From Rhodobacteraceae bacterium DSL-40 (lineage in GTDB: Bacteria; Pseudomonadota; Alphaproteobacteria; Rhodobacterales; Rhodobacteraceae), in the NCBI GenBank assembly GCA_003258405.1, contig QKPN01000003.1, positions 372,001-436,000 of the forward strand: 64,000 nucleotides of DNA. Direction: 5' to 3'. The position numbers and the translations under genes were made by a program. How positions within the stretch are numbered: the first letter of the stretch is position 1; each line of letters starts with the position of its first letter. This document shows, in pieces, positions 8,572 to 8,850 of the stretch. Under the pieces are notes generated by a model. The model searched no databases and was not told the DNA's origin. It worked only from the letters and a program-made list of their open reading frames with translations.

Positions 8572-8614
8572 AACAAAAGGCGGGCCGTGCAGTCTCAATG
8601 CACGACCCGCCGCT
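8572..8614 (-). terminator. Attenuator-like intrinsic terminator in the mraZ leader
   Basis: On the minus strand a two-part stem is visible. GGCGGG (8611-8606) pairs with CCCGCC (8584-8579), and TGCAC (8603-8599) pairs with GTGCA (8591-8587), with a 7-nt loop. TTTTGTTT (8578-8571) follows immediately. This has the form of a Rho-independent terminator ending about 35 nt before the mraZ start, so some transcripts should stop before the dcw genes. AGCGGCGGG at the 5' arm can alternatively pair with CCCGCCGCT about 100 nt earlier in the leader (plus-strand 8708-8716), giving a 9-bp competing helix. Confidence 0.7.
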
Positions 8615-8790
8615 TGGTCCGTTCTGGGGGCCTGGGCCCGACTGCGTCCGTTTGTGTGGTCTGCTCTGCTCTTTTGTGTCCGCGTCGGGTCTTCAATGTT
8701 TTCGGAAAGCGGCGGGCCTGTATGAAACCTGCCGTTTTTTTTGTTTTTCGCGGAGCTTGCTGCCCCTGTCCGAATTCCGCTGCCTTCCGT
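8572..8790 (-). ncRNA. UpsM-like sRNA / extended mraZ 5' leader
   Basis: The stretch between mraZ and rnpB (about 550 bp) has no supportable gene and is far more AT-rich than its surroundings. A promoter at 8797-8825 and the terminator ending near 8572 define an RNA of about 219 nt. In Rhodobacter sphaeroides the dcw cluster is preceded by an unusually long leader. Partial termination there releases the sRNA UpsM (about 206 nt), which is processed by RNase E with help from the sRNA StsR. Position, length and terminator all fit. I infer homology by architecture and have not aligned it to UpsM. It contains a run of eight A's and other A-rich single-stranded-looking stretches that could be RNase E sites. 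Confidence 0.6.
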
Positions 8791-8796
8791 GAATTT

Positions 8797-8850
8797 TGGA
8801 TACCATGGGAATTTGTACAACTCAATGGATTTTTATGCCACTCCATGGAC
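8797..8850 (-). promoter_or_regulatory. Predicted mraZ/dcw promoter overlaid by 20-bp-spaced ATGG repeats
   Basis: On the minus strand, TTGAGT (8825-8820) and TATCCA (8802-8797) are separated by 17 bp, as in a housekeeping promoter, with transcription expected near 8790. On the plus strand ATGG occurs at 8805, 8825 and 8845, exactly 20 bp (two helical turns) apart, in CCATGGGA, CAATGGAT and CCATGGAC. MraZ of E. coli binds repeated TGGG-type boxes about 10 bp apart upstream of its own gene. These repeats lie over the spacer and the -35, a sensible place for an autorepressor. Both assignments are predictions. Confidence 0.45.

Follow-up and report, generated by a model that had tools for sequence, protein, structure and literature searches.

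An UpsM-like mraZ leader of a Rhodobacteraceae bacterium, most likely controlled through a StsR-like small RNA rather than through an intrinsic antiterminator

In the excerpts of the published work on which this comparison draws, UpsM of R. sphaeroides is an sRNA of 206 nt that arises by partial termination, its terminator letting through about one transcript in 100 in vivo (PMC5089854). RNase E processes UpsM to a product of 130 nt (PMC5089854, PMC6238624), and its cleavage is promoted by StsR (RSs0827), an sRNA of 72 nt under RpoHI/RpoHII control that pairs with UpsM and with the dcw leader (PMC8307010, PMC8625941, PMC11354728). A riboswitch-like refolding of R2 with R4 is also described there, which the family consensus did not reproduce (PMC5089854). 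Listeria SreA/SreB, likewise a leader RNA that terminates and acts in trans, is discussed in the same paper; that leader is a riboswitch, whereas the likely input in the case presented here is another sRNA (PMC5089854). The protein encoded by the first gene behind such leaders, MraZ, is a repressor of its own cluster (PMC8475190). These excerpts, taken from papers other than Grutzner et al. 2021, the main one on StsR and UpsM, say nothing of how far StsR or its pairing site (site A below) is conserved, nor of a contact between StsR and the R2 loop.

The window analyzed here, a stretch of 64,000 nucleotides from Rhodobacteraceae bacterium DSL-40, carries the following elements at its mraZ locus:

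9476-9095, minus strand: RNase P RNA (RF00010, 277.7 bits), directly upstream of the mraZ leader
8797-8825, minus strand: promoter-like pair, with a –35 element TTGAGT (8825-8820), a 17-nt spacer and a –10 element TATCCA (8802-8797)
8778-8789, minus strand: 5′ strand of helix P1, from the fold and the swap test
8752-8766, minus strand: hairpin P1a (GGGGC..GCUCC), from the fold, conserved in the alignment
8703-8714, minus strand: 3′ strand of helix P1, from the fold; the RNase E cut would be expected in or just 3′ of this strand
8637-8689, minus strand: hairpin R2, from the fold, with the stem 8689-8681 / 8646-8637 and a large apical loop
8571-8611, minus strand: intrinsic terminator (R4), with a 13-bp stem (8611-8579) and a U-rich tail (8578-8571)
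8539-8024, minus strand: mraZ, gene 1 of the dcw cluster, an ORF with a GTG start (Pfam MraZ, E = 5.6e-20)
downstream, minus strand: ORF for a penicillin-binding transpeptidase, ftsI by position
downstream, minus strand: ORF for a Mur ligase, murE by position

The gap between the RNase P RNA and mraZ on the minus strand measures 0.55 kb; an RNase P RNA is also present at the locus of a relative (L009). The order of genes on the minus strand is mraZ, rsmH (an ORF for a MraW-type methyltransferase), an ORF of 113 amino acids, and the transpeptidase and Mur ligase ORFs. The third of these, for which Pfam gave no match, we take from its position behind rsmH to be ftsL. MraZ relatives occur in 295 of the 296 genomes of the family.

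An initial annotation of this DNA had described a leader of mraZ resembling UpsM, with a promoter pattern, a hairpin just before mraZ, a transcript of about 219 nt and a competing 9-bp antiterminator that may make the switch conditional. All of this stood up to the present analysis except the antiterminator as a conserved conditional switch. The promoter-like pair agrees with the consensus at 8 of 12 bases, and a scan demanding 9 of 12 therefore returned nothing. A TTG-N-xA pair is found in 138 of 138 leaders, a count that is weak on its own because the rule is very loose, and the promoter region is conserved in the alignment. Transcription is estimated to start at ∼8790, which predicts a transcript of 218 nt. 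The terminator stem has an energy of –26.2 kcal/mol and is followed by TTTTGTTT. Compared with shuffled sequences, the whole leader folds with a z score of –3.31, only 1 of 200 shuffles being equally good.

To place the leader among its relatives, we used a set of 139 leaders (39 loci and 100 stretches), each from a different genome of the family, drawn from the best-scoring MraZ matches listed and from the genus of the window, so that distant members of the family are thinly represented. For most of the 100 stretches, the orientation was taken from the best motif match; the MraZ N-terminus agreed with this orientation in 95 and disagreed in none, and the 5 undecided stretches agree with the strands of the MraZ search. 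A model of the pre-terminator region built from 58 leaders, with the window left out, has a single match in the 64 kb of the window (95.8 bits, E = 8.5e-24), which supports the assignment to UpsM-like leaders that the initial annotation had made. In a draw of 241 genomes from the class, the same model recovered four genomes of the family at E ≤ 5.8e-22 (one of them, G050, was also in the training set), and the 237 genomes of other families gave a single partial match (E = 0.0018). When a terminator is defined by a stem energy below –15 kcal/mol and three or more T in the next nine bases, 138 of the 139 leaders contain one; the exception, L014, has none. A stricter tail with at least five T in the first eight bases after the stem, as in the window, is present in 72 of the 139, and a terminator search with the stricter rule gave 31 of 43 loci. 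Many terminator loops of the family, including several from other members of the genus, contain GGCAGC(A), which is absent from the loop of the window (8598-8592).

Located directly upstream of mraZ behind a promoter-like pair of its own, with a strong intrinsic terminator some 200 nt beyond its estimated start and with homology to other leaders of the family, the window leader is, judged by its sequence, a further member of the UpsM kind. In the excerpts available, R. sphaeroides UpsM likewise precedes mraZ in a related family, with one upstream promoter, an intrinsic terminator and hairpins before this terminator, and at 206 nt it compares with ∼219 nt in the window (PMC5089854). The likeness is drawn from the published description of UpsM, and the window and its genus, unlike R. 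sphaeroides UpsM, have a divergent R2.

R1 is reported as hardly conserved in the published text at hand (PMC5089854), whereas the part preceding R2 in our leaders holds the most conserved block of the entire RNA. This block, which the initial annotation had passed over, has its counterpart in a second gene of the same genome:

8716-8732, minus strand: site A, GCAGGUUUCAUACAGGC, the proposed StsR pairing site, from its conservation and its complement in the same genome
G000:C136:65297-65372, minus strand: candidate StsR gene, carrying a second copy of site A in antisense

The 16-nt core of site A is found within two edits in 138 of the 139 leaders (L195 needs five); 130 carry an exact copy of its 3′ seed, AUACAGGC, and 57 of the full 17 nt. 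If G.U pairs are allowed, 116 of 139 leaders can form an unbroken helix of at least 14 bp with the canonical StsR, against which UpsM variants on the 5′ side, for example GCAGGC or TCAGGU, are tolerated. In the genome of the window, the exact complement of site A lies at G000:C136:65337-65353 inside the candidate gene; all 17 of 17 nt pair, 18 with the neighboring base, at –36.3 kcal/mol. A search for site A with two mismatches allowed gave at least two matches in 30 of 37 family genomes and none in G304, as well as one match each in 6 of 24 genomes from other families. The reversed control gave 6 matches in the family genomes and 1 in those of other families.

According to Pfam matches in the window's own genome only, the candidate gene sits between an ORF for a short-chain dehydrogenase and one for the solute-binding protein of a transporter. 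A comparison of 38 sequences revealed CTTGG- and TATA-like boxes, a near-invariant 5′ part of 40 nt and a terminator that varies in sequence. The CTTGG-N-TATA pattern conserved before the candidate is presumably an RpoH promoter. The predicted hairpin of the RNA exposes GCCUGUAU in its loop, and the 5′ end (ACUGCUC) is mostly free. In the candidate at L074:2798-2873 (minus strand) and its 37 relatives, the first 20 nt are as invariant as the part pairing with site A, so that the RNA probably has further fixed partners.

A 36-nt pattern from the 5′ part, with three mismatches allowed, occurs once each in 290 of 296 genomes of the family and in none of the 284 genomes that the class draw contributed from other families; the reversed control gave 0. 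Among the matches listed, all are exact except those in G016 and G026 (one mismatch each). A covariance model detected divergent copies in four of the six family genomes lacking the pattern (G025, G093, G123, G198) and only chance-level matches in the other two (G120, G139); in G304, which belongs to the window's own genus, it gave weak matches only (E = 0.05). In G304, G120 and G139 the transporter gene has other gene neighborhoods with no StsR beside it, and the leaders of all three retain full or partial site A. A joint loss of StsR and site A, suspected for G139 and G025, was discarded: the G139 leader keeps the seed and GAGCAG, and the StsR of G025 is divergent. The same applies to a StsR outside the family, where 27 of 189 genomes gave matches at E up to 0.1 (the best with 30.8 bits, E = 1.4e-4); the two inspected, the top-scoring L208 and L209, have 15 and 17 mismatches in 36 positions and do not resemble StsR. 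Rfam returned for StsR only matches below the gathering scores, such as RF00519.

Going by length, layout and complementarity, the partner sRNA of ∼72 nt is most likely StsR. The published excerpts give 72 nt for StsR (RSs0827), compared with ∼72-78 nt for the candidate, and describe for R. sphaeroides StsR, to which ours is likened by description, a promoter and a terminator of its own and base pairing to UpsM (PMC8307010, PMC8625941, PMC11354728). G093 offers what appears to be one natural compensatory case: StsR and site A (located by eye in leader L220) are both changed, and the native pair (–32.5 kcal/mol) is better than either cross pair (–29.7 kcal/mol for its UpsM with canonical StsR, –27.2 kcal/mol for canonical UpsM with its StsR). 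Compensation was not found in G025, the native pair reaching –15.2 kcal/mol versus –20.1 kcal/mol for its UpsM with canonical StsR, which leaves one case for and one against. In G198, there is an apparent insertion near the StsR 5′ end (L198), and the leader (L223) carries a doubled, partly degenerate site A.

The free 5′ end of StsR has a possible partner of its own within R2:

8661-8671, minus strand: site B, GAGCAGAGCAG, in the loop of R2, with two complements of the StsR 5′ CUGCUC that overlap

In the predicted fold of the window leader, site B is 0.9 unpaired. GAGCAG is present in R2 of 105 out of 108 leaders with the common core, with 12.2 expected from shuffles, and in 20 of the 30 without it, with 1.9 expected. 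Seven of these 30 keep most of the R2 core, and the other 23 are truly divergent; here GAGCAG is the commonest hexamer (13/23), followed by GCAGTC, a part of the R2 stem (11). Some leaders lack GAGCAG though their genomes carry the StsR pattern, and any covariation at site B is invisible because the StsR 5′ end hardly varies. We propose that the StsR 5′ CUGCUC probably contacts GAGCAG in the R2 loop as a weaker second contact. R2 of the family leaders (e.g., L017 and L026) contains a long near-invariant block, GCGAGCAGACAUCCCCCCAGGUGGCGCGCGC, the core of which is found in 108 of 138; StsR accounts only for the GAGCAG part of it.

The leader is most likely controlled through StsR and not by an intrinsic antiterminator, and we are rather confident of the explanation as a whole: a leader of the UpsM kind, controlled through its StsR site, with an antiterminator that is most likely incidental. 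RNA polymerase would start near 8790, and, if the published behavior of R. sphaeroides applies, most transcripts would stop at the hairpin 8611-8579 to yield an sRNA of ∼219 nt and the remaining ones would read through into mraZ and the cluster. Site A (8732-8716) would pair with the ∼72-nt sRNA encoded elsewhere in the genome, most likely StsR, whose free 5′ end, CUGCUC, would probably join GAGCAG in the loop of R2. If R. sphaeroides is a guide, RNase E would then likely cleave within the P1 3′ strand or beside it, and this cleavage would reduce expression of the dcw genes in stationary phase and during stress. In a large family, this leader stands upstream of genes for cell division and wall synthesis; should the StsR contact prove as conserved as its sequences indicate, stress-to-division signaling by one sRNA acting on another would be a family-wide rule and no peculiarity of a single species.

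Counting the 130 nt of the published product back from the estimated terminator end, across 138 leaders, puts the start of the fragment 3′ of site A by a median of 11 nt (quartiles 10-14), the median position falling within the P1 3′ strand. In the window this start would lie at ∼8701, just past the P1 3′ strand and, by counting, ∼15 nt after site A. When sites A and B were blocked in the folds of the 138 leaders, P1 and the terminator remained unchanged on average; these folds consider blocked bases only, the strain of a 17-bp duplex inside the P1 junction being outside the model. The idea that StsR opens P1 by occupying site A was dropped, as the mean unpaired fraction was 0.19 both before and after blocking and an opening of more than 0.2 was seen in 4 of 138 leaders. 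Because site blocking leaves the P1 3′ strand closed, the published account of RNase E access was not reproduced by this simple model.

We tentatively consider a more specific role, in which the leader is a family-wide RNA-sensing attenuator and the StsR loop on the AUACAGGC seed, together with the 5′ tail on the R2 loop, sets terminator read-through; if so, the near-invariant StsR 5′ half would reflect a dedicated contact. Rather doubtful, though compatible with StsR-mediated control and differing from it in emphasis, is the reading of UpsM as mainly a sponge, an abundant terminated RNA that titrates StsR and has read-through control as a by-product. In the excerpts at hand, UpsM is called the sRNA with the highest abundance in exponential-phase R. 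sphaeroides, and the rpoE mRNA is a further StsR target (PMC5089854, PMC8307010, PMC11354728), both in keeping with a sponge, but StsR is described there as also acting on the dcw leader in cis (PMC8307010, PMC8625941).

The antiterminator of the initial annotation involves two short stretches:

8708-8716, minus strand: CCCGCCGCU, the proposed antiterminator strand, overlapping the P1 3′ strand and exactly complementary to 8614-8606
8606-8614, minus strand: AGCGGCGGG, overlapping the terminator 5′ arm, from the sequence

The 9-bp complementarity of CCCGCCGCU (8716-8708) and AGCGGCGGG (8614-8606) is exact as annotated, and inspection by eye lengthens it to 12 pairs, one of them G.U (8718-8707 with 8615-8604). 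Site A ends on the first base of the antiterminator strand. The two mutually exclusive folds that had been suggested are plausible, with –78.4 kcal/mol for the minimum free energy fold and –75.3 kcal/mol with the nine pairs forced. The pairing probability in the window varies with the chosen ends from 0.06 to 0.38, and the pairing beats 39 of 40 dinucleotide shuffles.

A conserved conditional switch is a different matter. If a helix is under selection, each strand should pair best with the partner from its own leader, and we compared native with swapped strands in 138 leaders. The terminator arms (native –28.7, swapped –20.4 kcal/mol) and P1 (–15.7 and –12.2 kcal/mol) show this behavior; the antiterminator does not, with –13.0 kcal/mol native, –13.2 kcal/mol swapped and a mean rank of 0.54 (chance 0.5). 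The leaders are related and not independent, and the swap and shuffle ranks are no probabilities. An invariant helix would likewise give no swap effect, and we therefore added a comparison with shuffled strands. Here the antiterminator had a mean gain of 0.59 kcal/mol and a mean rank of 0.42. In none of the 138 leaders did it beat all 40 shuffles, compared with 73 for P1 and 135 for the terminator. The highest column probability exceeded 0.3 for the antiterminator in 2 of 138 leaders, and 0.9 for P1 in 102 and for the terminator in all 138. RNAalifold on a MAFFT alignment returned only five pairs, in the outer R2 stem, and no P1; the alignment is poor around P1, which is why we preferred the alignment-free swap test. 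Covariation, which the initial annotation had named as a test of both helices, is seen in the terminator arms and not in the antiterminator helix, and on the swap test, the shuffles and the family-wide pairing probabilities we reject the antiterminator as a conserved switch.

Because of these results, we regard the 9-bp antiterminator as real complementarity that is most likely incidental, or at most peculiar to the species of the window, where the pairing may form. Such a complementarity can arise incidentally because it reuses the P1 3′ strand and the G+C-rich terminator arm. That the window's species has an intrinsic two-state attenuator, with the P1 3′ strand CCCGCCGCU capturing the terminator 5′ arm, would fit the exact 9-bp complement with its 12 pairs by eye, a forced fold only 3.1 kcal/mol above the minimum, a probability that reaches 0.38 for one set of ends and the 39 of 40 shuffles beaten; we nevertheless find it very improbable given the lack of covariation and the small excess over shuffles across the 138 leaders. 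Moreover, the highest column probability is ≤0.05 in the 10 other members of the genus (0.06 for the window in the same run), and the probability in the window drops to ≤0.11 once site A is blocked, so that StsR would oppose this pairing if it mattered.

Equally hard to credit is a metabolite riboswitch with R1/R2 as the aptamer and StsR as a secondary factor, an idea of Weber et al. 2016 suggested in the excerpted text (PMC5089854) and in line with the very conserved R2 core of 108 of 138 leaders, as the R2-terminator pairing of this type was rejected for want of covariation in the swap test, 30 of 138 leaders lack the core or have it in altered form, the most conserved block exactly complements another sRNA, and Rfam gave no match to the leader at E up to 1.

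The promoter-like pair of the window is itself overlaid by a repeated motif:

8800-8830, minus strand: phased NCCNA/NCCCA repeats, MraZ-box-like, over the promoter with a 10-bp period

These repeats resemble the consensus of MraZ boxes; if they are such boxes, autorepression by MraZ would be added at the same promoter. With a strict pattern, NCCNA-N5-NCCCA is present in 52 of the 139 leaders, whereas none of seven other spacings occurs in more than 6.
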